A DNA stretch of 64,000 bases. It comes from a bacterium. Lineage in GTDB: Bacteria > Vulcanimicrobiota > Vulcanimicrobiia > Vulcanimicrobiales > Vulcanimicrobiaceae. Both the position numbers and the translations under genes were made by a program. Shown here one piece after another: positions 7,293 through 46,766 of this stretch. Below the pieces are notes generated by a model, which was given only the letters and a program-made list of their open reading frames with translations, had not been told where the DNA came from and made no database searches. Where the stretch lies: assembly GCA_021832345.1 (NCBI GenBank), contig JAKBKY010000001.1:706385-770384 (forward strand), given 5' to 3'. Each line of letters begins with the position of its first letter. Position 1 is the first letter of the stretch.

Positions 7293-7943
7293 ATGCCTTG
7301 GGAACTGGGCGCCGGCCCGGAAGCCACGGTGGCGGTGGACGACCGGGGAATCATCGTGGCCTGGAATCGAGCTGCAGAGTTGCTGCTCGGCTGGACCGCC
7401 GAGCAAGCTATCGGTAGACCATGTCATGAGATCATGCACGGTTCCACATCAGCCGGCACGCCGATCTGCGGGCCGGATTGCGCCATTCTAGAGTGCGGCA
7501 AGCGGGGCAATACGCCGCGCCGATTCGAGATGCTGCTGCGCCGGCCCGACCAGACCGAAGTATGGTTAGATGTTACCTCGGTGACGTTGCGCGACAGTGG
7601 ACGGACTCTTTCGATCCATGTCTTCAACGAAAGCCTCTCCGTCCAACAGATGAGCAAGATCGCCGGCGAGGTTACCCAGCGTCTCGTGCTTGAACGAGCG
7701 AGCGCCGGGCCCAGCGATGAGAACCTGCAACGCCTGGTCGTCGATCGGCTCACCCGGCGCGAAATCGAGGTGTTGAAACTCGTGGCCGCCGGCCTCGGAA
7801 CGAACGACATTGCCGCCCAACTCCACTTAGCCCGCGTCACCGTGCGCAACCACATCAACAGCGCCATGGCGAAACTCGGCGCGCATTCGCGCCTCGAAGT
7901 CGGCGTCATCGCGCTGAAAGCTGGCCTGGTGCATTTGCATTAG
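7293..7943 (+). CDS. PAS domain - LuxR-type DNA-binding regulator
   Basis: A protein of 216 residues. An N-terminal PAS domain (VDDRGIIVAWNRAAELLLGW, residues 15-34) carries a cluster of cysteines (CHEIMHG, CGPDC, LECG between about 45 and 70). A LuxR/GerE helix-turn-helix is at residues 155-210 (LTRREIEVLKLVAAGLGTND, then VRNHINSAMAKLGAHSR). It lacks a receiver domain, so it probably senses directly through the PAS domain. The cysteines could bind a metal, heme or iron-sulfur cluster, which would suit control of an oxygen-sensitive pathway. It is followed by a TetR gene and the benzoyl-CoA cluster on the same strand. Confidence 0.78.
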   Translation: MPWELGAGPEATVAVDDRGIIVAWNRAAELLLGWTAEQAIGRPCHEIMHGSTSAGTPICGPDCAILECGKRGNTPRRFEMLLRRPDQTEVWLDVTSVTLRDSGRTLSIHVFNESLSVQQMSKIAGEVTQRLVLERASAGPSDENLQRLVVDRLTRREIEVLKLVAAGLGTNDIAAQLHLARVTVRNHINSAMAKLGAHSRLEVGVIALKAGLVHLH

Positions 7944-7990: not shown

Positions 7991-8653
7991 ATGCAGGTAG
8001 ATTCATTCGAACGAACGCTCGAACGATTAAATTTTGCCGGGAGAGTTCCAACTGTGCCTCGATTCGAGGGCCGTCAGTGCGTGGCGCTGGACGCCGCTGA
8101 GCGGATGTTCGCAAAGGACGGCTATGGATGCGCCACCATGCGGGATATCGCCACCGCGGCAGAGATGAGCATCTCCGGCCTCTACCATTACCTCCCGAGC
8201 AAGCAACGCGCCCTCGCCTTGGTATGCGAACGTGCGTTCTCCGCCCTCGTGGAAAGTCTCGCTCGGGCATTGGCGGCGAGTCCCGTTCCCCGAGCGCAAC
8301 TTCTCGCATTCGTTCATGGGCACATCGATTTCGTCATACGCCAACCCAATGCGTATCGCGTACTCTTGCATAGCATGGATGCTCTCGCCGGAACGGAGCG
8401 GATCGCGGTTCAGAAGCTGCGACGCCTCTATTTTGAACGAGCCGTCGGTCTTGTGGCCACCCTGCAAGAAGCGCAGCCTTCCCCGATATCGCCCAGGGTA
8501 GCCACTGCGGCACTCTTCGGAATGATGAATTGGCTGCCGATGTGGTACCACGGCCGAGACGAGTCAGATGCCACGCATCTCGCACATGTCATGGTGCTGC
8601 TCTTCCTACGCGGTGTAGTTCCTTCCCAAGCACTTTCGGAGACCGTATCATGA
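7991..8653 (+). CDS. TetR/AcrR-family transcriptional regulator
   Basis: A protein of 220 residues with a TetR helix-turn-helix (AAERMFAKDGYGCATMRDIA, then MSISGLYHYLPSKQRAL) and an all-helical ligand-binding domain. A GTG at 8054 is an alternative start that trims a weakly conserved N-terminal 21 residues. Its stop overlaps the ATG of the dch gene (ATGA), so it is co-translated with the benzoyl-CoA genes. Known repressors of such clusters bind acyl-CoA effectors (for example the unrelated BzdR with benzoyl-CoA); a similar role is inferred here. Confidence 0.82.
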   Translation: MQVDSFERTLERLNFAGRVPTVPRFEGRQCVALDAAERMFAKDGYGCATMRDIATAAEMSISGLYHYLPSKQRALALVCERAFSALVESLARALAASPVPRAQLLAFVHGHIDFVIRQPNAYRVLLHSMDALAGTERIAVQKLRRLYFERAVGLVATLQEAQPSPISPRVATAALFGMMNWLPMWYHGRDESDATHLAHVMVLLFLRGVVPSQALSETVS

Positions 8654-9396
8654 GCGAACGCATTATCGTAGGCCGTGAAGGACGACTCGGCCGTATCACT
8701 CTTGCCGCCGGGCGTCTCAACATTCTCGGCACGTCCGATGTTCGTGCACTGGAGCAGGCCGTTCGGTCACTTGGGGAGTCTCCCGTCGTGCTGCTCGATG
8801 CAGAGGGCACATCTGCCTTCTCGGCCGGCATGGACATCGCCGATCATACGCGCGATCGTGCTCCGGAGATGCTCGCCGCATTCGGCAAGATGATCGCGGC
8901 ATTTAACGAGACTTCATCGGTCATCGTCGCCAAAGTCGGCGCGCCGGCCTTGGGCGGCGGATTCGAAGTGGTGTTGCTGTGCGATCTGGCGATCTGCTCG
9001 GAACGTGCGATCTTTTCGTTGCCGGAAATCAAACTTGCCGCCCTTGCGCCTGTGGCATGCGGCGTACTGCCGGCGCTGATCGGCAGAGCCCGAGCGAACG
9101 ATCTGATCCTCACCGGTCGGCGGGTGGATGCTCAAACCGCACTCCAGTGGGGCGTCGTGACGCGTCTTGCTGCACCTGATGCACTCGACCAAGCCGCAGA
9201 TGAACTCTGCCAAGAGCTACTGTCGCTCTCGGAGGATGCATTGCGGTGTTGCAAGCGAGCTTTGCGGGCCGGGACTATCGCTGAATCGTTGCGCGTCTAT
9301 ACCGACGTGCTGCTCCCAACTGACGATGCCGCGGAGGGCATCGATGCATTCCAAGGAGGCCGGGCGCCGCAGTGGTCCTGGTCGCAACACCGCTAG
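8650..9396 (+). CDS. dch: Cyclohexa-1,5-diene-1-carbonyl-CoA hydratase (Dch-like)
   Basis: A crotonase-fold protein of 248 residues. Crotonase signatures include AFSAGMDIADHTRDR near residue 57, APALGGGFEVVLLCDLAI near 97 and LPEIKLAALAPVA near 120. The Ala-Gly-x-Asp-x-x-Asp-His-Thr pattern and the ending with Asp-Ala-x-Glu-Gly are those of dienoyl-CoA hydratases of benzoyl-CoA pathways. The reaction adds water to cyclohexadienoyl-CoA, giving 6-hydroxycyclohex-1-ene-1-carbonyl-CoA. It is the first enzyme gene of the cluster and overlaps the TetR stop by four bases. A general enoyl-CoA hydratase is the alternative; the context argues for Dch. Confidence 0.75.
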   Translation: MSERIIVGREGRLGRITLAAGRLNILGTSDVRALEQAVRSLGESPVVLLDAEGTSAFSAGMDIADHTRDRAPEMLAAFGKMIAAFNETSSVIVAKVGAPALGGGFEVVLLCDLAICSERAIFSLPEIKLAALAPVACGVLPALIGRARANDLILTGRRVDAQTALQWGVVTRLAAPDALDQAADELCQELLSLSEDALRCCKRALRAGTIAESLRVYTDVLLPTDDAAEGIDAFQGGRAPQWSWSQHR

Positions 9397-9407
9397 GAGA
9401 TTATCAC

Positions 9408-10244
9408 ATGACTGAAATCACCCAAGGTTCATCGGAGGCAGAGGTCGCGGATGATATCCTCTATGAAGTACACGACCGCGTCGCCACCGTTACCTTGAAT
9501 CGGCCGAACGCCTACAACGCATACACCACGGAGACGCTCCAGCGATTTCATGTTGCGTTGCGTCGAGCCATGTGGGACAACGAAGTGGGCGTCGTCGTGA
9601 TTACCGGCTCAGGCCGCAAAGCGTTCTGTACCGGCGGCGACGTCAAAGAATACGAAGAACGCTACGTTGCATCACCGGCCGAGTTCTGGAAATATATGGT
9701 GCTCTTTCAGGATTGCATCGATACCATTCGCAACATGGGCAAACCGACCATCGCACGGCTCAACGGCATGACGGTCGGCGGCGGCAACGAAATGAACATG
9801 GCGTGCGATCTGGCCGTTGCCGCAGATCACGTAACGATCCGCCAGGTAGGAGCGAAGGTGGGCAGTGTCGCCGCAGGCGGAGCCACACAATGGTTGCCGA
9901 TCATTATCGGCGATCGCCGGGCACGTGAGATGCTGTACCTGTGCGAACCGATCAGCGCTCAGCAAGCACTTGAATGGGGGCTCGTCAATCGTGTCGTCCC
10001 GTTTGAAGAACTCGATGCCTGCGTACGCGACCTTTGCGATAAGCTCCTGGACAAGTTCCCAGCTTGCCTGAGTTACACGCAATGCCAGGTAAACTATTGG
10101 AAAGATCAGGCATGGAGCGCCACCATCGGGCACGCGCGGGAATGGTTGACGATGCACTTTGCGCACCCGGAGACAGCCGAAGGTATGAAAGCGTTCGTCG
10201 AAAAGCGCGCTCCGGATTATGCCGGTATCCGGAAACGGAAGTAA
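9408..10244 (+). CDS. oah: 6-oxocyclohex-1-ene-1-carbonyl-CoA hydrolase (Oah/BamA-like), short form
   Basis: A crotonase-superfamily protein of 278 residues. Features include NRPNAYNAYTTETLQRF, AFCTGGDVKEYEERY (residues 70-84), GMTVGGGNEMNMACDLAVA, and GSVAAGGATQWLP followed by a LCEP segment. The Thr-Gly-Gly-x-x-Lys-Glu-Tyr and Gly-Gly-Ala-Thr patterns match ring-cleaving hydrolases of the benzoyl-CoA pathway as I recall them. Those are usually about 375 residues with a middle insertion; this copy lacks that insertion and has the length of BadI-type ketocyclohexane-carboxyl-CoA hydrolases. It probably opens the ring to a 3-hydroxypimelyl-type CoA ester. A TAGGAGA site precedes the ATG. Confidence 0.68.
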   Translation: MTEITQGSSEAEVADDILYEVHDRVATVTLNRPNAYNAYTTETLQRFHVALRRAMWDNEVGVVVITGSGRKAFCTGGDVKEYEERYVASPAEFWKYMVLFQDCIDTIRNMGKPTIARLNGMTVGGGNEMNMACDLAVAADHVTIRQVGAKVGSVAAGGATQWLPIIIGDRRAREMLYLCEPISAQQALEWGLVNRVVPFEELDACVRDLCDKLLDKFPACLSYTQCQVNYWKDQAWSATIGHAREWLTMHFAHPETAEGMKAFVEKRAPDYAGIRKRK

Positions 10245-10250
10245 AGAAGA

Positions 10251-11279
10251 ATGAAAGCCGCGATCTTCTACGGTCCGAACCGCCCGCTTGAACTCGAAGA
10301 GCGTCCGATGCCCATTCCCGGCCCGGGCGAAGTTGTCGTCAAGGTCGCGGCCTGCGGGCTGTGTCACACCGATTTGCATTATATCGATCACGGTGTTGCG
10401 ACGTTTTGCCCGCCGCCGCTCATACTCGGACACGAGGCCTCAGGAATTGTCGCTGCCGTCGGTTCCGGCATCGAAGGGAGATACGAAGGGGATCGCGTCC
10501 TCATCCCCGCTCTCTTGACATGTGGAACCTGCGATGCGTGTCGTCGCGGGCGAGAGAACATTTGCGAGCACGGGATCATGCCGGGGAACCACATCGACGG
10601 GGCATACGCCGAGTATATTCGCGTCCCGGCAAAAGATCTGCTTGCGTTACCGGAGGATCTGCCTCTAGAAGACGCGTGCCTGATTGCCGACGCGGTGTCC
10701 ACCCCGTATCACGCGGTGGTCAATCGAGGTGAAGTTCGAGCGGGTCAACGCGTTGTTGTGTTTGGCTGCGGAGGCGTAGGGATCAACGTCATACAGATTG
10801 CCGTCGCCTCCGGAGCTGAAGTGTGGGCTGTTGATATGCAAATGGAACGCCTGGAACAGGCCTTGCGTTTTGGCGCCGGACACATCGTGCATTCTGCAGA
10901 CAACACGACTGTCGCAAGAGAGGTTCGTTCGCAGACGCATGGCGGCGCCGATGTGGCTTTTGAAGTCATAGGGAATCCGTTAACGATGCGGCAGGCCTTC
11001 GACAGTCTGCATCGCGGCGGTCGTCTGGTTGTGGTCGGATATTCGGATCGTGACTTTCCGCTATCTGCGGCCAAGCTGATGTTCAACGAAATGGACGTAC
11101 GAGGATCGCTGGGTTGTCGTCCCATCGACTATCCTCGCATCATTGAAATGGCAAGGCAGGGCCGCATCGCCATCAAACCGCTTGTCACCGGGCGCTTTTC
11201 TTTAAACGACATCAATAGTGGGCTCGATGCATTGCGCGCAGGTAGCGGCCTGCGCAACATCGTCGTTCCAGGAATCTAG
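10251..11279 (+). CDS. had: 6-hydroxycyclohex-1-ene-1-carbonyl-CoA dehydrogenase-like zinc alcohol dehydrogenase
   Basis: A medium-chain dehydrogenase of 342 residues. It has catalytic-zinc residues (CGLCHTDLHY, then GHEASG), a structural zinc loop CGTCDACRRGRENICEHG at residues 86-103, and a Rossmann motif VFGCGGVGINVIQ near 175. NENIC/GNHIDGAYAEY patterns of this kind occur in Had proteins. It starts six bases after the oah stop. In the pathway it oxidises the hydroxycyclohexene-carbonyl-CoA made by Dch to the 6-oxo compound cleaved by Oah. Gene order and cluster membership carry most of the specificity; the fold itself is generic. Confidence 0.68.
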   Translation: MKAAIFYGPNRPLELEERPMPIPGPGEVVVKVAACGLCHTDLHYIDHGVATFCPPPLILGHEASGIVAAVGSGIEGRYEGDRVLIPALLTCGTCDACRRGRENICEHGIMPGNHIDGAYAEYIRVPAKDLLALPEDLPLEDACLIADAVSTPYHAVVNRGEVRAGQRVVVFGCGGVGINVIQIAVASGAEVWAVDMQMERLEQALRFGAGHIVHSADNTTVAREVRSQTHGGADVAFEVIGNPLTMRQAFDSLHRGGRLVVVGYSDRDFPLSAAKLMFNEMDVRGSLGCRPIDYPRIIEMARQGRIAIKPLVTGRFSLNDINSGLDALRAGSGLRNIVVPGI

Positions 11280-11292
11280 GGAAGGGGTGGAT

Positions 11293-12465
11293 ATGGCTAT
11301 TCAATCGACCGTGTCGTTTGAAGAACTGATCGAAGAATGCAACGATGCGATCGCCACCATCGACTTTGCCGACGCGCAGGCGTGGAAGAACGAAGGCCAC
11401 ACTCAAGCCTTGATTGGGTGCTTCCCCGTCTATACGCCCGTTGAACTCTTTCACGCGGCCGGAGCATTGCCTGTTGGCCTCACCGGGGCGGGCAATAAGA
11501 TTGAGATATCGCACGCCGATTCCCGCTTCCAGTCCTTCATCTGTTCGATCATCAAGAGCACACTCGAACTCGCCATGATCGGGAACCTCGATGCGTTCGA
11601 CGGCTTTGTGTTCCATTCAATCTGCGATCCGGCCCGTAATCTAGCCAGCGTGTTTGCGCGGACGATGAACACCAAACAAGTCGAATACATTCACTTCCCG
11701 CAACGTATTCCATCGTACGAAGCCGTCGTTTATCTGGAGGCTGAGTATCGTCGCATCCTCGCCTGGGCTTGCACCCTGACCGGGCGTAGCGTGACCGATG
11801 AGGACCTGCGGCGCAGCATCGCCCTCTACGATGCCGTTCGTTCTGCGATCGGTCTCTTGTACGACGTTCGCCGCAACGAGCCGCACAAGCTCTCCACCTT
11901 GGAACTCTATGCTCTCGTGCGCTACGGTCACGTTGCCCCGCCGGAAAAACACTTACGGATACTCGAGCATGCTCTGGAATACGTGCGTGCACGTGGGGGA
12001 ACCCCCAAAGATCGGGCGCGCGTCGTCGTCGTAGGCTCCTTCTGCGAGCAGCCTCCCATGGATCTCATCGCTTCGATCGAGCAGGCCGGGTGTTACGTCG
12101 TTGACGATGACTTTCTTTTGGGCCGGCGCTTCTTCACTGGGGGTATTGCCGACACGGGGAACCCGCTCTATGATTTGGCTGATGCGTACGTACACGGAAG
12201 CGTCGATTCGAGCGTCAAACACGATCTCGGGCACTCCAAGGCACTAAGTCTGGTTCAACGGGCTCGGGACCATCGCGCGGATGCCGTTGTCGTTCTGACC
12301 GCAAAGTTCTGCGAACCGGCCTTGTTTGATTACGTACTCTATCGCAAAGCGCTGCAAGAGGCGCACATGCCGCACGTGTTCCTCGAATTCGAAGAAAAAA
12401 TGTGGCTCTTCGACAAGATCAAGACGGAACTCGAAACGTTTGTCGAGTCGCTACTCTTCAGCTAG
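11293..12465 (+). CDS. bzdN: Class I benzoyl-CoA reductase, BzdN/BcrC-like subunit
   Basis: A protein of 390 residues of the 2-hydroxyacyl-CoA dehydratase subunit family (HgdB/BcrC). Cysteines that can hold the [4Fe-4S] cluster occur in GCFPVYTPVELFHAAGALPV (near 38), HSICDPARN (near 110), GSFCEQPP (near 250) and AKFCEPALFDY (near 340). Length fits BzdN/BcrC (about 380 aa). With BzdO it would form the catalytic half that reduces the benzoyl-CoA ring by two electrons. The start is the ATG after GAAGGGGTGGAT, which gives the family N terminus. Confidence 0.82.
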   Translation: MAIQSTVSFEELIEECNDAIATIDFADAQAWKNEGHTQALIGCFPVYTPVELFHAAGALPVGLTGAGNKIEISHADSRFQSFICSIIKSTLELAMIGNLDAFDGFVFHSICDPARNLASVFARTMNTKQVEYIHFPQRIPSYEAVVYLEAEYRRILAWACTLTGRSVTDEDLRRSIALYDAVRSAIGLLYDVRRNEPHKLSTLELYALVRYGHVAPPEKHLRILEHALEYVRARGGTPKDRARVVVVGSFCEQPPMDLIASIEQAGCYVVDDDFLLGRRFFTGGIADTGNPLYDLADAYVHGSVDSSVKHDLGHSKALSLVQRARDHRADAVVVLTAKFCEPALFDYVLYRKALQEAHMPHVFLEFEEKMWLFDKIKTELETFVESLLFS

Positions 12466-12477
12466 GAAAGTTATTTC

Positions 12478-13758
12478 ATGCATGACGCGACATATCAAGG
12501 ACGGTTACATTATCTGCAAAAGCAGCTCATGGCCGACTATTATGCCGAACTGACGGCAAGCGCAGAAGGTAACGGCGCACCGGCAGCCTATTTGCTCATC
12601 GGCGGCAATCCCGTTGAACTCTTGCGCGCATTCGATATGCTGCCTGTATATCCCGAAGTCAATGCACTGCAGCTTGCGGTAAAGAAGAACTCTCTTGGGC
12701 ACATTCAATCCGCCGAAGACATGGGTTATTCCACCGACAATTGTGCCTATGTGAAGGCTGACATCGGGATGTACTTCGCGGGCAGGAAGACGCCGTTCGC
12801 AACAATCCCGGAACCGTCACTGCTCTTGTGCAACTATGTCGGCTGTAACGTGTATTTGCACTGGTTCGATCATCTGGCAGAATACACGAAAAAGCCGGCC
12901 TTTCACCTCGATGTCCCCTTCATTCGCACGGCATCCGGCAGACCGACGCGAGAAGACATCGATTATGTGATGCGGCAATTGCACCAACTCATCGCGACAT
13001 GCGAAGAGATCACCGGGAAACGACTCGACGAAGACAAATTGCGCCGTGCGATCGAACTGTCGTCCGAAACCGGCAAGCTGTGGTCGGAAATCAAGCATCT
13101 AACCAAACACAGGCCTGCCCCATACGATGCCTATTTCGATTCCGTCACGATGATGGCTCCGCTCTATTGTTTGCGCGGAACCGAAGGCGGTTTGGAGTTC
13201 TTCCGGGAGGCTCGCGACGAATATGCACGCAGAGCTGCGGCAGGACAGGGCCCCCTCCCGCGCGAGGACGTTCGCTATGTCATCGAAGGGCCGCCGCCAT
13301 GGCCTTACTTACGGGTTTTTCGCGACATGTTTGCACGGTGGAACGCGGTCGCCGTCGCCTCAACGTACTCGACCGTTGGCGGCCTATGGGAGTTTGGATT
13401 CGCGCACGATCCGGACCACCCGTTGGAGAGTATCGCCGAACATCTCTTATCCTGGAATCTGACGAATCGAAACTTCTTGCAACGTTACGACCAGATCGAG
13501 CGTTATCTGGACGAATGGAACGCTGAGGCGCTCGTTATTCACTCGGTAAAGAGCTGTCGATTATTTTCTGCTGGGCAAGGCGATATGCGCGAGTATTTTA
13601 CAAAGCGGAACATTCCAACATTACTCGTCGAGTCGGATCTCGAGGATCCGCGTTATTTCTCGGAGGCGCAGATGCGCACCCGTATCGACGCGTTCTTCGA
13701 ATCTCTTGCACACCGCAAGTTAACCGCCTCCGCGAGTGCATCAGGTGACAAGGCATGA
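12478..13758 (+). CDS. bzdO: Class I benzoyl-CoA reductase, BzdO/BcrB-like subunit
   Basis: A protein of 426 residues in the same dehydratase-subunit superfamily, with the length of BzdO/BcrB. It carries [17 protein letters not shown] (residues 44-60), [17 protein letters not shown] near 120 and a C-terminal [19 protein letters not shown] near 350. The last is the cysteine motif shared by BcrB and HgdA/HgdB proteins. It starts 12 bases after bzdN and overlaps bzdP by four bases (ATGA), so expression is tightly coupled. It would bind benzoyl-CoA together with BzdN. Confidence 0.82.
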
Positions 13759-14549
13759 AATTTGCAGCCGGCGTTGATGTTGGGTCGACGCAAACAAAGT
13801 GCGTCATCGTGGATCGCGATGGACAGATCGTTGCACGCTCGTTGATCGAAACCGGAGCGTACGTGACGCGCGCTGCGGAACGTGCCTTTGATGAGGCGCT
13901 CGCGTCGTCGGGCATGTCACGTGATGACGTTGGGTGCGTGGTGGGTACCGGGTACGGACGTTTCCGAGTGACGTTCGGCGATCTGCAAATTACTGAGATC
14001 AGTTGCCATGCAAAGGGCGCTTGCTCGCTGTTCCCAGGCACGCGCACGGTCATCGACATCGGGGGGCAGGACGCCAAAGGCATCAAAGTGCTCGACGGCG
14101 AGGTTCTTGATTTTGTTATGAATGACAAGTGTGCGGCGGGAACGGGTCGCTTTCTTGCAACAGCCGCAGAAGCGCTTTCTATGTCGCTGGGCGACATCGG
14201 CGAACTCTCCCTACAGGCACGCAACCCTGTCCGGCTGTCGACCGTCTGCACGGTGTTCGTCGAGTCTGACATCATGTCGTATCTTGCCCAGGGCAAGAAA
14301 CTCCCTGATATTCTTGGCGGCATTCACAGCGCTATTGCGGCCCGTACTATTGCATTGGTGCGCCGCGTAGGGTTAGAACCGGAAATTACATTTACCGGTG
14401 GAGTGTCGCTAAACGTCGGAATGGTGCATGCTCTCGAAGAGAGGCTTGGCGTGCCACTCAATGTTTGCGCCGATTCGCATTATATGGGGGCCATTGGGGC
14501 TGCGGTGTTTGCAATGGAGCATGGCCTGGCACGTGCTCAGGAAGCGTAA
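13755..14549 (+). CDS. bzdP: Benzoyl-CoA reductase ATPase/activator subunit, BzdP-like
   Basis: An ASKHA-fold ATPase of 264 residues, typical of BadF/BadG/BcrA/BcrD activators. Motifs are [15 protein letters not shown] (residues 7-21), [11 protein letters not shown] near 98, [11 protein letters not shown] near 120 and [11 protein letters not shown] near 165. The two cysteines in the last two motifs normally bridge one [4Fe-4S] cluster between subunits. It couples ATP hydrolysis to electron transfer into the ring-reducing half. The small size (264 rather than about 430 residues) places it with the Azoarcus bzd type rather than the Thauera bcrA type. Confidence 0.85.
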
Positions 14550-14558
14550 GGAGTATCT

Positions 14559-15350
14559 ATGAGTCTCATCGTTGGGGTTGATATCGGGTCTCGCGGAACG
14601 AAGATCGCGTTAGTGGATCGCAGCGGAGGCCTTCGTGGATGGCATCTGGCGCGAACGCGGCCGCCCTTCGAAGACCTCGTCGAGAACACTCTTGCGGCAG
14701 CGCTCGCCGAAATAGGCGCCGACCGCTCCGATGTCGAGCACATCATCACCACCGGCTTCGGGCGATCGAGCTATCCAGGCCGAGATACGCAGGTGACGGA
14801 CATCAGTGCAGCGGCATTCGGTGCGGCTGCGATATTCCCGAACACGCGATGTGTTATCGATGTCGGGGCGCAGAGTTCTCGTGCGGTCCACATTGACGGG
14901 GGGGGGCGTGTCAAGGAGTTCAAGTCGAATGACAAATGCGCTGCCGGAGCCGGAGGGTTTGTTGAACGCGCTGCGCGCTACCTGGAGATAACATTAGACG
15001 ATGTCGGCACGCTGTCGTTGGCAGGACGCGAGCCGGTCACGATTTCAAGTGTATGCGCGGTGTTAGCGGAGTCGGAGATCATCAATCACGTTAGCCAAGG
15101 CTGTTCGGTCGAAAACATTCTGCGAGGCGTTCATAATTCGCTGGCTGAGCGGGCAGCGGCGCTCCTAAAGCGCGTGGGCATCGAGGAAGAGATTACCTTA
15201 GTTGGTGGTATGGCGCGCCAACGCGGAATGGTTCAGGCGCTCGTTGAGATGCTGAAGCTGCCTGTAAACATTCCCGAGGTACCGGAAACGGTCAACGCGC
15301 TGGGAGCAGCATTGTTAGCCAAGCGCCGTTTGGAACGAGCAGCCGCCTGA
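14559..15350 (+). CDS. bzdQ: Benzoyl-CoA reductase ATPase/activator subunit, BzdQ-like
   Basis: A second ASKHA activator, 263 residues, with GVDIGSRGTKIALVD, NDKCAAGAGGF near 126 and SSVCAVLAESE near 165. The phosphate-loop segment reads VIDVGAQSSR instead of the usual IGGQD, so its ATP site differs from the BzdP partner. Two unequal activators side by side distinguish class I benzoyl-CoA reductases from 2-hydroxyglutaryl-CoA dehydratases, which use one. A run of nine G bases lies in the gene at 14898-14906. The stop overlaps the ATG of the hemerythrin-like gene by one base. Confidence 0.82.
   Translation: MSLIVGVDIGSRGTKIALVDRSGGLRGWHLARTRPPFEDLVENTLAAALAEIGADRSDVEHIITTGFGRSSYPGRDTQVTDISAAAFGAAAIFPNTRCVIDVGAQSSRAVHIDGGGRVKEFKSNDKCAAGAGGFVERAARYLEITLDDVGTLSLAGREPVTISSVCAVLAESEIINHVSQGCSVENILRGVHNSLAERAAALLKRVGIEEEITLVGGMARQRGMVQALVEMLKLPVNIPEVPETVNALGAALLAKRRLERAAA
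14898..14906 (+). repeat. Nine-base G homopolymer inside bzdQ
   Basis: Nine consecutive G bases encode Gly-Gly-Gly after Asp in the bzdQ product. A tract this long inside a coding region is prone to slippage in replication and to sequencing indels. Confidence 0.9.
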
Positions 15351-15859
15351 TGGGCGCATTTGAACAGCTACGCGGAGAGCATAAAGTAATCCTTGAGGTC
15401 GCGGCGCTCATGGAACTGCTTGCTAGTGACCAAGATACACCCGATCGGCTCCGTGCGAGCATGCCGGAGTTATTGGACTTCTTACGCACGTACGTCGATC
15501 GGAACCACCACGCTAAGGAAGAACTCGCACTGTTCCCTGCGATGGAGGTAGATCCCATGCTGCACGCACTAGCGGAAGTGCTCGAGGCGGAGCATGATGA
15601 GGCTCGCCGGATGCTTGTGTTGATGGAAGAGGCTGCCCGCGATGAACGCGCCCCATTGCACAACGCGGCACTTGCGTATACCGCACACATGCGCGAACAT
15701 ATTGCCAAGGAGAACGAGATGATCTTCGACGCGGCGGAGCGGACGCTGGGGACAGAGCAAACGAATGCGCTAGAGCGAGAGTTCACGGATATCGAAGCGG
15801 CCGCGCTCGCTCCCGGCAAGCTCGAAGAGTTGCTGGCTGCGATCAGGAAACATTGCTAG
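15350..15859 (+). CDS. Hemerythrin-like HHE-domain protein
   Basis: A helical protein of 169 residues with a hemerythrin HHE pattern: LRGEHKVILE (residues 7-16), VDRNHHAKEELALFPAME (near 53), LEAEHDEARRMLVLME (near 77) and MREHIAKENEMIFDAAE (near 112). The spaced His and Glu residues can hold a di-iron centre that binds or consumes oxygen, or senses NO. The ATG shares one base with the bzdQ stop (TGATG), so translation is coupled to the reductase genes. Protection or repair of the oxygen-sensitive reductase is a reasonable inference. Confidence 0.82.
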   Translation: MGAFEQLRGEHKVILEVAALMELLASDQDTPDRLRASMPELLDFLRTYVDRNHHAKEELALFPAMEVDPMLHALAEVLEAEHDEARRMLVLMEEAARDERAPLHNAALAYTAHMREHIAKENEMIFDAAERTLGTEQTNALEREFTDIEAAALAPGKLEELLAAIRKHC

Positions 15860-15928: not shown

Positions 15929-17311
15929 TTATCGTGCGGGCGCGAATCTTGCCGTGAAATGTCGCAACGGTGGATCCTGCCAAACCATGCGAAGCCCACC
16001 GATGCGCTTGCGCCCGGCGAAGACGTCGGACATCACCTCGCAGACATAATCTATGTGACTCTGCGTGTAAACACGACGCGGAATCGCCAAGCGAACGAGC
16101 TCCAGCGCCGCCGTTCGTATCTCCCCTGTTTCTGCGTTCGTTGAACCGAACATCACCGTTCCGATTTCAACGGCGCGGACGCCACCTTCGAGATACATCT
16201 CCCCAACGAGCGCTTGCCCGGGGAACATCTCCGGCGGAATATGTGGCAACATCGCTGCCGCATCGATGTAAATTGCGTGCCCTCCCGGCGGCTGCACGAT
16301 TGGGATCCCGATGTCACTGAGATGTCGCCCCAGGTATGCCGTCGACGCGATGCGGTAACGCAAGTAATCCTCATCCAGCACTTCGTTCAGGCCCACCGCA
16401 ATCGCCTCAAGATCACGCCCTGCGAGGCCCCCATACGTTGGGAAACCCTCCGTCAGGACGAGCAATCTCGATTCCTGTCTCGATAGCCCTTCATCATTTG
16501 TCGCTAAGAAGCCGCCGATGTTCACCAAGCCATCCTTCTTGGCGGACATTGTGCAGCCATCCGCATACGAGAACAGCTCGCGCGCGATATCGCGCGCGGA
16601 CATTTGCGCATACCCCATCTCGCGTTCTCGGATGAACCACGCATTCTCGGCAAATCGGCATGCGTCAATGTACAAAGGCAGCCCGTGACGTTTGCACACG
16701 CTGCTGACTGCCTTCACGTTCGCCATCGACACGGGTTGACCACCGCCGGAGTTGTTTGTAATCGTCAACATTACGAGCGGAATCCGTTCCGCACCAACAT
16801 CGGCTATGAGCGCTTCCAAAGCGTCGACATCCATGTTTCCCTTGAAGGGGTGAAGCAGCTCCGGCTGTAGCCCTTCGGCAATCGGTAGATCGATCGCCTG
16901 CGCTCCCACATATTCGATGTTTGCTCGAGTCGTATCGAAATGCGTGTTGTTCGGGACGATGTCGCCGGGCTTACAGACCGTGGTGAAAAGAATACGCTCG
17001 GCAGCGCGCCCTTGATGTGTCGGCAGGACATAGCGAAATCCAAAGATGCCCTTCACGGCCTCAGCGAACCTGTAGTAAGATGTTGCCCCTGCGTACGATT
17101 CGTCGCCTCGCATGATAGCTGCCCATTGTTCGGCGCTCATCGCGCCGGTGCCGCTATCCGTGAGTAAATCAATTAGCACGTTCTCGGCTCGCAATAAGAA
17201 CGGATTATACCCCGCATCTTCCAAGAAGTGCTCACGTTCCAAACGGGTCGTCATGCGAATGGGTTCGACGGATTTAATACGAAACGGCTCTATAATTGAT
17301 CGGGTTGGCAT
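15929..17311 (-). CDS. tnaA: Tryptophanase (tryptophan indole-lyase)
   Basis: A PLP-dependent beta-eliminating lyase of 460 residues that splits L-tryptophan into indole, pyruvate and ammonia. Recognisable parts are EPFRIKSVEPI at the N terminus, LLTDSGTGAMSAEQWAAIM, PTHQGRAAE, and SYADGCTMSAKKDGLVNIGG, which carries the PLP lysine. Three positions separate it from tyrosine phenol-lyase: HFDTT (Asp instead of Thr), GVRAVEIG (Val instead of the substrate Arg region) and the ending LRHFTARF (His instead of Phe). A clear GGAGG lies upstream of the ATG. It faces the benzoyl-CoA cluster tail to tail. No obvious tnaC-type leader peptide was seen. Confidence 0.85.
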   Translation of the reverse strand: MPTRSIIEPFRIKSVEPIRMTTRLEREHFLEDAGYNPFLLRAENVLIDLLTDSGTGAMSAEQWAAIMRGDESYAGATSYYRFAEAVKGIFGFRYVLPTHQGRAAERILFTTVCKPGDIVPNNTHFDTTRANIEYVGAQAIDLPIAEGLQPELLHPFKGNMDVDALEALIADVGAERIPLVMLTITNNSGGGQPVSMANVKAVSSVCKRHGLPLYIDACRFAENAWFIREREMGYAQMSARDIARELFSYADGCTMSAKKDGLVNIGGFLATNDEGLSRQESRLLVLTEGFPTYGGLAGRDLEAIAVGLNEVLDEDYLRYRIASTAYLGRHLSDIGIPIVQPPGGHAIYIDAAAMLPHIPPEMFPGQALVGEMYLEGGVRAVEIGTVMFGSTNAETGEIRTAALELVRLAIPRRVYTQSHIDYVCEVMSDVFAGRKRIGGLRMVWQDPPLRHFTARFAPAR

Positions 17312-33615: not shown

Positions 33616-33942
33616 ATGAGCGCGATTGCAGAAGTAACGCAGAAAGACTTTGCGGCCTCGGTGCTGCAGAGCAGTCAGCCGGTGCTGGTCGACTTCTGGG
33701 CACCCTGGTGCGGGCCGTGTAAGATGCTGGGACCGGTGGTTGAAAAAGTCGCATCCGCCCACGCCGGCAAGGCGAAGTTCTTCAAGCTGAATACCGATGA
33801 TAATCCGAGCCTCGCCGGGCAGTATCAGGTCTCCGGGATTCCGTGCCTGATCCTCTTCAAGGACGGTCAGCCGGTCGATCGGATCGTCGGCTACGTCTCC
33901 GAGAACGTGATTGCCTCGATGCTCGGCAAGCATCTGAACTAG
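33616..33942 (+). CDS. trxA: Thioredoxin
   Basis: A protein of 108 residues with FWAPWCGPCKMLGP (active-site WCGPC at 33-37), the cis-Pro segment SGIPCLILFKDG and GYVSENVIASMLGKHL. Length and motif are those of classic TrxA. An eight-codon open frame (33592-33618) overlaps its start in ATGA style. It precedes selA. Confidence 0.92.
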   Translation: MSAIAEVTQKDFAASVLQSSQPVLVDFWAPWCGPCKMLGPVVEKVASAHAGKAKFFKLNTDDNPSLAGQYQVSGIPCLILFKDGQPVDRIVGYVSENVIASMLGKHLN

Positions 33943-33977
33943 ATGGCCCGGCAAGTCATCTAGACCTCGGGGGCGAG

Positions 33978-35315
33978 GTGAATCAAGCGTTGCGCGGCCT
34001 TCCGGCCGTGCATCGTTTTCTTGGAGAACCGGCCATCGCGGCGTTCGAGCCGCTGGTGGGGCGAGAGTGCGTCAAGCGCGCGATCGCCGCCGAGTTGGAC
34101 CGCGCGCGCCTGCGGACCACTCTCGGGTTTGCGGCGCTCCGTGCAGCCGTCCTCAAGCGACTCGAAGTGGAGCTGGCGGCAACCCTGCTTGGGGTCATCA
34201 ACGCCACCGGCATCCTCTTGCATACCAACCTTGGACGCGCGCCGCTAGCCGGCGAAGCGCTCGAAGAGGCCATGCGTATCGGTACCGGTTACTCGAACCT
34301 GGAGTACGATCTGGCCGGCGGTGGGCGCGGCTCGCGCTACGACCGCGTCAGCGGCGTGTTGCGGGAACTCACCGGTGCGCAGGCCGCCCTCGTCGTCAAC
34401 AACTGCGCGGCCGCGGTGCTGCTGATCCTCGATACATTTGCGCGTGGGCGGGAAGTCATCGTCTCACGCAATCAACTCATCGAAATCGGCGGCGGTTTTC
34501 GCCTGCCGGATGTTTTACGGCGCAGCGGCGCGAGCCTGGTTGAGGTCGGTGCGACCAACAAGGTCTACCTCGCCGATTTCGAAGCGGCGCTCTCGCCGCG
34601 AACCGCGCTGCTCTTGCGCACGCATCCGTCGAACTTTTCGATCGAAGGCTTCACGCACGATGTGCCGGGTGCGCAGTTGAGCGAGCTTGGCAAGCGCGCC
34701 GGCGTTCCGGTCGTCGAAGATTTGGGCTCCGGTGCGCTCGTGGATCTCAGGCCGTATGGTTTGCCGCACGAACGCATCGTCGCCGAAGCGGTGGCCGAGG
34801 GCGTCGGTCTGGTTGCGTTCTCGGGCGATAAGCTGCTGGGTGGGCCGCAGGCCGGCATCATTGTCGGCTCGCAGCCGTTGGTGGCGCGCTTGAAGAGCAA
34901 CCCGTTGTTGCGTGCGCTACGCGTTGATAAGCTGACGCTTGCGGCACTGGCTGCAACCTTACGCCTGTATGCAACGCCGGAGTCGTTGCGCCGTATCCCG
35001 TTCTATGCGATGGCGTCGCTTTCGTGTGAGGAGTTACGCCTGCGCGGCGCACGGTATGCGGCACGCTTGCCGGCCGCGTCCGTGGTGGACTGCGCGGCCT
35101 ACGTTGGGGGAGGGTCGCTGGCGCAGGCATCGTTTCCGTCCGTGGCGGTGGCGCTGGCCACCGGCCAGCCGGATGCGCTCGACGTCGCGCTGCGCGCCGG
35201 GCATCCGCCGATCGTCGCACGCATCGAGCATGGGCGCGTGCTGCTCGACCTGCGCACGGTCGCCGAGTGCGATGACGAGCACGTCATCGGCGCACTCGTA
35301 GCGGCAAGCGTGTAA
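33978..35315 (+). CDS. selA: L-seryl-tRNA(Sec) selenium transferase
   Basis: A PLP enzyme of 445 residues that converts Ser-tRNA(Sec) to Sec-tRNA(Sec) with selenophosphate. Features are INATGILLHTNLGRAPL near 75, GSRYDRVSGVLRELTGAQAA near 120, NNCAAAVLLIL, EDLGSGALVDL near 250 and the PLP lysine in FSGDKLLGGPQAG near 285. The GTG start gives the expected N-terminal RALRGLP-type domain; a weak GGCGAGG lies directly before it. selB follows after 11 bases, and the matching tRNA-Sec lies about 11 kb downstream. Confidence 0.9.
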   Translation: MNQALRGLPAVHRFLGEPAIAAFEPLVGRECVKRAIAAELDRARLRTTLGFAALRAAVLKRLEVELAATLLGVINATGILLHTNLGRAPLAGEALEEAMRIGTGYSNLEYDLAGGGRGSRYDRVSGVLRELTGAQAALVVNNCAAAVLLILDTFARGREVIVSRNQLIEIGGGFRLPDVLRRSGASLVEVGATNKVYLADFEAALSPRTALLLRTHPSNFSIEGFTHDVPGAQLSELGKRAGVPVVEDLGSGALVDLRPYGLPHERIVAEAVAEGVGLVAFSGDKLLGGPQAGIIVGSQPLVARLKSNPLLRALRVDKLTLAALAATLRLYATPESLRRIPFYAMASLSCEELRLRGARYAARLPAASVVDCAAYVGGGSLAQASFPSVAVALATGQPDALDVALRAGHPPIVARIEHGRVLLDLRTVAECDDEHVIGALVAASV

Positions 35316-35326
35316 GCGCCTCGGCG

Positions 35327-37180
35327 ATGCACATCATCGGGACCGCCGGTCACGTGGATCACGGCAAATCCTCGCTGGTCGCAGCGTTGACCGGCACCGA
35401 CCCCGATCGCTGGATCGAAGAGCAACTGCGCGGGATGACGCTCGATCTTGGTTTCGCGCATCTGCGCATCGGCGAGCTGGAAGCCGGCATCGTGGACGTG
35501 CCGGGGCACGAACGCTTCCTGCACAACATGCTGGCCGGCGCCGCAGGCATGGAGGTGTTGCTGCTGGTGGTTGCGGCCAACGAGGGCGTGATGCCGCAGA
35601 CGCGCGAGCACCTGCAGATTCTGCGCTACCTCAACGTGCAGCGCACGATTCTGGTGGTGACCAAAAGCGATCTGCTCGATCCCGCGCAGCTCGACGCGGC
35701 GCTGATGCAGATCGCCGAACAGCTTGCAGGCACGCTTGCCGATGGTGCGCCGGCGGTGGCCGTCTCATCCTCGACCGGTGCCGGGCTCGAAGACTTGCGC
35801 GAGTTGATCGGCCGCGTACTGAGCGACCTGCCCGACCGGCCGGCCGATGCGCCGCTCTATATGCCGGTGGATCGCGTCTTTGCGCCGGCCGGGCACGGGA
35901 CCGTCGTCACCGGAACGCTGATGCAAGGCAGCGTGAGCGTCGGCGATACGGTGGCGTTGCAGCCGAGCGGTCTGCGCGCCCGGGTGCGCTCGTTGCAGGT
36001 CTTCGGCCGTTCGCAAACTACGGCGTACGGCGGTGCGCGCGTGGCGTTGAACGTGCCGGGCATCGAACGCAGCCGGATCGCACGTGGCGAAGTGGTGGCA
36101 AGCCTCGAGACCGGTGTGCAAGATCGTTTTGCGGTGAGTTTCGAACCGCTGCCAGATGCGCTGAGCTTGCTGCGCCGGCGGATGCCGGTGCGCGCCTCGA
36201 TCGGCTCGGCCGAGGTGCTGGGGATGCTCCTCTTCGAGGAAGCCCCGTGCGACGCGCACGCCGTTACCGCAACCTTGGCGTTGCGAGTACCGGCGGTGGC
36301 GTTCCCGGGCGTGCGCTTCGTCCTGCGGCGGCTCTCGCCCAAAACGCTCCTCGGCGGCGGCGTGATCGCAGGTGCGCAGAGCGTTGCACCGGAGCCCGGG
36401 GACGATTACGATGCAAGCCAAGCAGCCGTGCTCGCGGTGCTGCGGGCGGCGCCGCTGGAGCCAAGCGACCTTGCAGCCATTGCGTTCGCGGCGAATCTGC
36501 GCGAGGATGCGGCGCGCAGCGCCCTCGCGCAGGTGTGCGAGCGCGGCGAGGCGCTTCGGATCGCTCGCCCGGTCGCCTACATCGATGCTGTGGCCGCCTC
36601 GCAGATGCTCGAAGGAACGCTGGCGGTGTTGGAGCAGGCGCATGCCGAAGCGCCATGGTCCCAAGGACTGCCCTCGCTCGCGCTCGCGCGCCGGCTCCAG
36701 GTGGCTGAACCGCTGCTCGTCCGTGTGCTGGCGGCCTACGTCGACGACGGTCGTCTGACGCTGCGGGCCGGTTACTATGCGAGCCCGAGTCACGTTACGC
36801 GCCTCACGGCGGAGCAGAGCGCCTTCCTTGCGGAGCTGGTGCCAAGCGATCCGCAACAGCCGTTTCTGCCGGTCAACGCCGCCGATGCCTATGCGGCGGT
36901 GCGCGCCAGCAGCGTTGCCGGGGTGAGCGCGGCGTTTGAGACTCTGCTCGCCCGGGATGCCTTTGTCAAGGTCGGCGATGCGCTCTACCGCGGCTCCCAG
37001 ATCAATCGCATCGTGGAGCGAGTTGATGCGTATCTGCGTGCCCAGGGACAGATGACGGCCTCGCAGTTTCGCGATCTGCTGGGAACCTCACGCAAGTACG
37101 CCGTGCCGTTGCTGGAGTGGCTCGACGCTCGCGGCGTCACCGTGCGTAGCGGCGACCTCCGAGTGCTGCGCAAGCGCTAG
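35327..37180 (+). CDS. selB: Selenocysteine-specific elongation factor SelB
   Basis: A translational GTPase of 617 residues: [20 protein letters not shown] (G1), [22 protein letters not shown] (G3) and VVTKSDLLD (G4). It continues through two beta-barrel domains and ends with C-terminal winged helices (for example [29 protein letters not shown]) that bind the SECIS hairpin. It delivers Sec-tRNA to in-frame UGA codons. Length is that of full bacterial SelB. Confidence 0.9.
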
Positions 37181-46672: not shown

Positions 46673-46766
46673 GGGAGAGTACGGGTCTGGTGGCCCGCAC
46701 GGTCTTCAAAACCGCTGAGGCCGGTGCAAGCCGGTTGGTTGGTTCGATTCCAACACCCTCCCGCCA
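46673..46766 (+). tRNA. selC: tRNA-Sec (anticodon UCA)
   Basis: A 94-base gene with an encoded CCA end. It folds with an 8-bp acceptor stem (46673-46680 with 46755-46762; one A-C mismatch at the sixth pair) and a 6-bp D stem with four-base loop (46682-46687 with 46692-46697). The anticodon loop CTTCAAA carries TCA at 46706-46708. A long variable arm covers about 46716-46735, and there is a 5-bp T stem with loop TTCGATT. The 8+5 acceptor/T arrangement and 6-bp D stem are hallmarks of bacterial selenocysteine tRNA. selA and selB lie 9-13 kb upstream. Confidence 0.93.

Follow-up and report, generated by a model that had tools for sequence, protein, structure and literature searches.

The 64,000-nucleotide stretch of bacterial DNA analyzed here (the window) carries the gene of a small hemerythrin-like (HHE) protein whose start codon lies within the stop codon of an activator gene of a class I aryl-CoA reductase. 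This arrangement is inherited together with the reductase within the family of the host, and HHE genes recur at reductase loci in other phyla. Class I benzoyl-CoA reductases are oxygen-labile enzymes of anaerobes, and the host possesses terminal oxidase genes. The best reading of the HHE protein is that of a guardian of the Fe-S clusters of the reductase in O2-respiring hosts, acting either by scavenging or by repair.

Reductase operon and the bcrD/HHE junction

The HHE gene is the last of ten co-directional genes (Table 1), in which a PAS-LuxR and a TetR regulator are followed by two crotonases, a zinc dehydrogenase, BcrC, BcrB, BcrA, BcrD, and the HHE protein. The real start of the dienoyl-CoA hydratase-like gene is probably located 3' of the TetR stop. 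The reductase subunits score higher on Bcr than on Bzd models (303 bits for BcrC vs 100 for BzdN, 306 for BcrB vs 129 for BzdO, and 163 for BcrD vs 131 for BzdQ), all three Bcr-type scores lying below the equivalog cut-offs, and thus the substrate may be benzoyl-CoA or a substituted aryl-CoA. The nearest solved structure is that of the 3-methylbenzoyl-CoA reductase MbdNO (9g87). BcrB residues C89, C123, and C360, invariant in the alignment, correspond to the Cys residues, three in number, that coordinate the catalytic [4Fe-4S] cluster of BzdO (PMC11971306). The partner of the HHE protein thus has the BcrCBAD subunits and the catalytic-cluster cysteines of a class I benzoyl-CoA reductase. By sequence comparison, this reductase is of the Bcr/Mbd type with the order bcrCBAD. 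The earlier note had taken the gene upstream of HHE to be bzdQ, an activator gene of a class I reductase; the activator assignment stands, while the name must be changed to bcrD-like or mbd-like because the Bcr-type models score higher and MbdNO is the closest structure.

Table 1. Features of the window, with positions, strand, and basis of assignment.
Feature	Position	Strand	Basis
PAS-LuxR regulator, first gene of the conserved cluster	7293..7943	+	Pfam PAS + GerE; same place in relatives
TetR regulator	7991..8653	+	Pfam TetR_N + TetR_C_24; place conserved
Enoyl-CoA hydratase family, dienoyl-CoA hydratase (Dch)-like	8530..9396	+	Pfam ECH_1; TIGR03189 match below cut-off
Crotonase, BadI / 6-oxocyclohex-1-ene-1-carbonyl-CoA hydratase-like	9372..10244	+	TIGR03210 206 bits, TIGR03200 205.6 bits, below cut-off
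Zinc alcohol dehydrogenase, 6-hydroxycyclohex-1-ene-1-carbonyl-CoA dehydrogenase-like	10251..11279	+	TIGR03201 239 bits, below cut-off
BcrC-like subunit; homologue of BzdN, carrier of the [8Fe-9S] cluster	11218..12465	+	TIGR02263 303 bits; MbdN 9g87 chain B E=1.7e-83
BcrB-like catalytic subunit	12478..13758	+	TIGR02260 306 bits; MbdO 9g87 E=2.3e-71; invariant Cys
BcrA-like activator subunit (ATPase)	13755..14549	+	PF01869 231 bits; TIGR00241 263 bits, over cut-off
BcrD-like activator subunit ('bzdQ' of the earlier note)	14559..15350	+	PF01869 176 bits; TIGR02261 BcrD 163 bits vs BzdQ 131 bits
Stop/start overlap TGATG, bcrD/HHE gene	15348..15352	+	Sequence; 1-nt or 4-nt overlap kept in 15/15 relatives
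HHE di-iron protein gene, 169 aa	15350..15859	+	PF01814 61.6 bits; alignments; AlphaFold; Foldseek
Tryptophanase / tyrosine phenol-lyase family gene	15929-17311	-	NF009709 688 bits, below equivalog cut-offs
selA and selB, side by side	33843-35315, 35327-37180		Both over cut-off
tRNA-Sec, ~9.5 kb beyond selA/selB	46673-46762		RNA-family scan

The TGA stop of bcrD (15348-15350) and the ATG of the HHE gene (15350-15352) share the single base A, and the earlier note had read this TGATG overlap correctly. A scan of the junction on the plus strand for a promoter or terminator found none. Because the HHE start codon lies within the activator stop codon, the HHE protein and the activator are probably produced together by termination-reinitiation, and we infer from the same arrangement that the two products may be made in a fixed ratio, as had been supposed.

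The tryptophanase-like gene of the window is inverted; in most bcr-bearing relatives (L062, L066, L069, and others) its counterpart shares the strand of the HHE gene and lies ~0.5-1.5 kb past it, and a 65% identical copy directly follows bcrD in a member of the Phycisphaerae (L151:4188-5558). The product of this gene may feed aromatics into the pathway. In the RNA-family scan of the window, tRNA-Sec is the only match; together with selA and selB it represents selenocysteine machinery.

Fold and predicted metal site of the HHE protein

The only Pfam domain in the HHE gene product is Hemerythrin (PF01814, 61.6 bits; cut-off 25.3), and the protein begins at this domain. The AlphaFold model is all helical, with mean pLDDT of 96.0 and pTM of 0.91, and its top Foldseek matches are the HHE proteins 3cax, 2p0n, and 6q09. 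The profile score and the all-helical bundle place the protein in the hemerythrin superfamily, in agreement with its initial description as hemerythrin-like.

No aligned member departs from the predicted metal ligands H11, H53, E57, H82, H117, and E121. The ligands of the RIC protein YtfE are H84/H204, H129/H160, and the bridging pair E133/E208 (PMC9268430, PMC9052748), and in the alignment H11/H117, H53/H82, and E57/E121 match this set of four histidines and two bridging glutamates. The putative di-iron site is RIC-like in this respect and unlike that of an O2 carrier. Assignment of the protein to RIC itself was rejected, as it reaches 19 bits on TIGR03652 against a cut-off of 204.7 and is without the N-terminal ScdA_N domain with its CC motif. 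Assignment to the bacteriohemerythrins was likewise rejected, as TIGR02481 is unmatched and the HxxxH and HxxxxD motifs are absent, residue 86 being Arg and the last motif HxxxE. The pattern HHGKEE is common to the single-domain homologues at loci L102, L133, and L080.

Recurrence of the HHE gene at reductase loci

The host is judged to belong to the phylum Candidatus Eremiobacterota. Within the sample of relatives compared, sixteen genomes of the same family, not counting that of the window, contain BcrB, and in each of the 15 whose assembly extends to the end of bcrD the HHE gene follows directly; the sixteenth (G082) is outside this count because its contig stops inside bcrD. In these relatives the overlap is either 4 nt long, with the sequence ATGA or GTGA, or a single nucleotide, within TAATG. 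The geometry varies by genus, a spacer between bcrD and HHE was never seen among the 15, and the linkage is perfect across eight genera including that of the window. The earlier note had made its proposal depend on recurrence of the pair beside reductase genes in related genomes, and the proposal survives this comparison. The HHE tree repeats the clades of the BcrCBAD tree. Identity to relatives is down to 31-44% for the HHE protein and 78-85% for BcrB, and throughout the divergence of the HHE protein the six predicted ligands, together with H54 and E58, remain invariant. In the 12 same-family genomes searched, the bcr-linked HHE gene either stands alone or is accompanied by one or two others elsewhere in the genome. 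Where a same-family genome has no BcrB, HHE is matched only in G056, at a broken contig end, where a tryptophanase-like gene follows.

Two genomes of a sister family have the operon, with BcrB 84% identical, and no HHE gene after bcrD; one of them (G097) has no HHE gene anywhere in the genome, and the other (G102) has one at another site. Because both are placed among HHE-bearing branches of the Bcr tree, their history is likely to have involved either loss of the HHE gene or transfer of the operon without it. A search for a relic of the gene 3' of bcrD, comparing the first bases in these two genomes, gave P values of 0.02-0.08, which are not clearly above chance, and a remnant is therefore not claimed. 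Both genomes retain terminal oxidases alongside the operon. The finding that the operon is kept without the HHE gene indicates that the gene is dispensable. The view of the HHE gene as an accessory part of the operon therefore holds to the extent that an HHE gene of the di-iron type is present in the operon and co-inherited with the reductase, but not as a strict requirement.

A BcrB alignment searched against 84,980 species genomes yielded 80 loci. Beyond Eremiobacterota, 11 Pfam-verified HHE genes are found at ten of these loci, at most ~7 kb from bcrB, compared with 0.5 expected from the PF01814 density across 50 of the non-Eremiobacterota genomes. The Poisson P for this enrichment is about 1e-11, and counting no more than five independent lineages raises it to 2e-4; the earlier suggestion that the pair should be sought in other reductase-bearing genomes is thus rewarded by an excess of HHE and RIC genes at class I bcr loci. 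These loci belong to Acidobacteriota and Chloroflexota and carry differing HHE lineages. In an Acidobacterium (L102), 13 nt separate bcrD from a single-domain HHE gene downstream of it, and another HHE gene is divergent from bcrC (L133). Three loci of Chloroflexota (L113, L119, and L132), and additionally L241, share one HHE type, located between the crotonase and the dehydrogenase, and a further type is found at L099 and L106. At one more locus, L207, the class I bcr cluster is flanked by two different HHE genes (2198-2734 and 10922-11476), the downstream one being separated from bcrD by an acetyltransferase-looking ORF. Four acidobacterial bcr loci (L099, L101, L104, and L110) have bona fide RIC genes that exceed the TIGR03652 cut-off, and in three of these loci the order is RIC, SnoaL-like, GNAT, Rrf2, bcrC (L101:3144-5558, L104:3078-5542, and L110:3330-5619). 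The GNAT and Rrf2 pair is reminiscent of BadL/BadM of Rhodopseudomonas palustris (PMC6191541). A single clade of the HHE proteins of Eremiobacterota, L102, and L133 is rejected (p-AU 0.0019), and for this reason the recruitment of HHE genes to bcr loci was probably convergent.

Outside Eremiobacterota, the surroundings of most bcr loci contain no HHE gene, and of 151 genomes surrounding an Acidobacterium, 40 have single-domain homologues, for the most part away from bcr. No HHE relative was found in the plasmid records searched, and the bcr-like plasmid matches are distant dehydratases. At the one annotated proteobacterial locus inspected, no HHE gene is annotated. The gene order of the window (TetR, Dch, Oah, Had, bcrCBAD) also occurs in a set of Bacillota loci (L122, L123, and L125-L127), with no HHE gene nearby; this set includes Sulfobacillus benefaciens, an acidophile, and transfer of the operon between acidophiles is possible.

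Role of the HHE protein and comparison with known systems

Haem-copper oxidase genes are present in the host and in 13 of the 14 bcr-bearing relatives searched, and hence the reductase probably meets oxygen. Enzymes of class I have a solvent-reachable catalytic [4Fe-4S] cluster and an [8Fe-9S] cluster, and their electron transfers take place below -600 mV (PMC11971306). The preferred reading, to which somewhat less than an even chance is given, is that the HHE protein is a cytosolic four-helix-bundle di-iron accessory dedicated to the Bcr-type reductase, keeping its Fe-S clusters working by scavenging. Synthesized jointly with the activator, the protein would bind iron at its H4E2 site and consume O2, peroxide, or NO near the activator BcrAD or the reductase BcrBC, and the oxygen-labile clusters could in this way stay functional in a host that respires O2; in an alternative step, the protein might help to rebuild the clusters of the activator. 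By analogy, its role is most likely comparable to that of the Campylobacter jejuni hemerythrin HerA, which shields the [4Fe-4S] enzymes Por and Oor from oxygen and does not make their recovery faster (PMC4257069). Counting against a scavenging accessory are the RIC-like ligands, the HHE-less operons of the sister family, and the majority of bcr loci in other phyla, which are without HHE.

Prevention of damage is ranked above RIC-like repair, in which the protein would supply iron, or an electron, for rebuilding Fe-S clusters, damaged or new, in both the activator and the reductase. Repair, although unlikely, is the foremost competitor, favored both by a six-ligand pattern identical to that of YtfE (PMC9268430, PMC9052748) and by the bona fide RIC genes at acidobacterial bcr loci, three of them beside Rrf2. 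The low score on the RIC model disagrees with it, and prevention is favored by the absence of ScdA_N and by the precedent of the Campylobacter protein, which averted damage without hastening recovery (PMC4257069). It is improbable that the reductase has the HHE protein as a stoichiometric fifth component docked on BcrAD, where it would reload or protect the exposed [4Fe-4S] cluster and enable a super-reducing anaerobic enzyme to work in oxygen-respiring cells, a component that would have evolved independently in several phyla from different HHE or RIC genes.

Improbable to much the same degree is that the gene is a general stress passenger, a common solitary COG3945-like HHE gene that is co-transcribed by chance and whose product is active cell-wide. 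The homologues mostly off bcr in genomes around the Acidobacterium, and the sister-family genomes without the gene, are consistent with this explanation, but it is difficult to reconcile with perfect linkage over eight genera, with an overlap kept despite changing geometry, and with the enrichment of different HHE lineages at bcr loci. Slightly less probable again is a sensory or regulatory function, in which the di-iron protein would sense O2 or redox state and control the activator or the operon regulators. HHE domains serve as sensors in other systems and regulators open this operon; nevertheless, the HHE domain stands alone, without an output domain, and its gene is coupled to that of the activator, at the opposite end of the operon from the regulators. 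Storage or delivery of O2 in the manner of a bacteriohemerythrin is very improbable in spite of the superfamily fold and of the oxygen store proposed for COG3945 HHE proteins of benzoate clusters (PMC6449761), given that the carrier motifs and the TIGR02481 match are missing and that a reductive pathway needs no O2. The survival of oxygen-labile, low-potential class I reductases in genomes with terminal oxidases would be accounted for by a dedicated di-iron partner that has been recruited repeatedly, and such a partner would provide a concrete accessory for keeping such reductases active in engineered or fluctuating-oxygen settings.

Among proteins of known structure, PF0695 (3cax), NMB1532 (2p0n), and an Rv2633c homologue (6q09) resemble the HHE model with Foldseek probability of 1.00 and TM (query) of 0.63-0.75; they come from other genomes, are 14-22% identical, and in the case of 3cax and 2p0n are labelled as uncharacterised or of unknown function. 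The RIC/YtfE/ScdA/DnrN family (TIGR03652) shares with the HHE protein the four-helix bundle and the six ligands in the arrangement H-HxxxE-H-HxxxE, and true members also occur at some class I bcr loci. The HHE protein differs from RIC in its domain composition and model score, and its gene order ties its role to one catabolic enzyme. HerA is of the bacteriohemerythrin type, unlike the HHE protein of the window, and its gene is not known to share an operon with those of its client enzymes. HerA and HerB of C. jejuni are nevertheless similar in being small hemerythrin-fold proteins of an O2-respiring host that protect labile [4Fe-4S] enzymes (PMC4257069). In the literature searched, no HHE protein coupled to benzoyl-CoA reductase is described, and the nearest precedent is the COG3945 HHE protein of box/ben benzoate clusters in Rhodocyclales, for which a role as oxygen scavenger or protector has been proposed (PMC6449761). 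Both proteins are encoded within a benzoate gene cluster, but the COG3945 genes stand beside genes of the aerobic benzoyl-CoA (box) pathway, ben, or aph in Betaproteobacteria, whereas the HHE gene of the window overlaps that of the activator of an anaerobic reductase.
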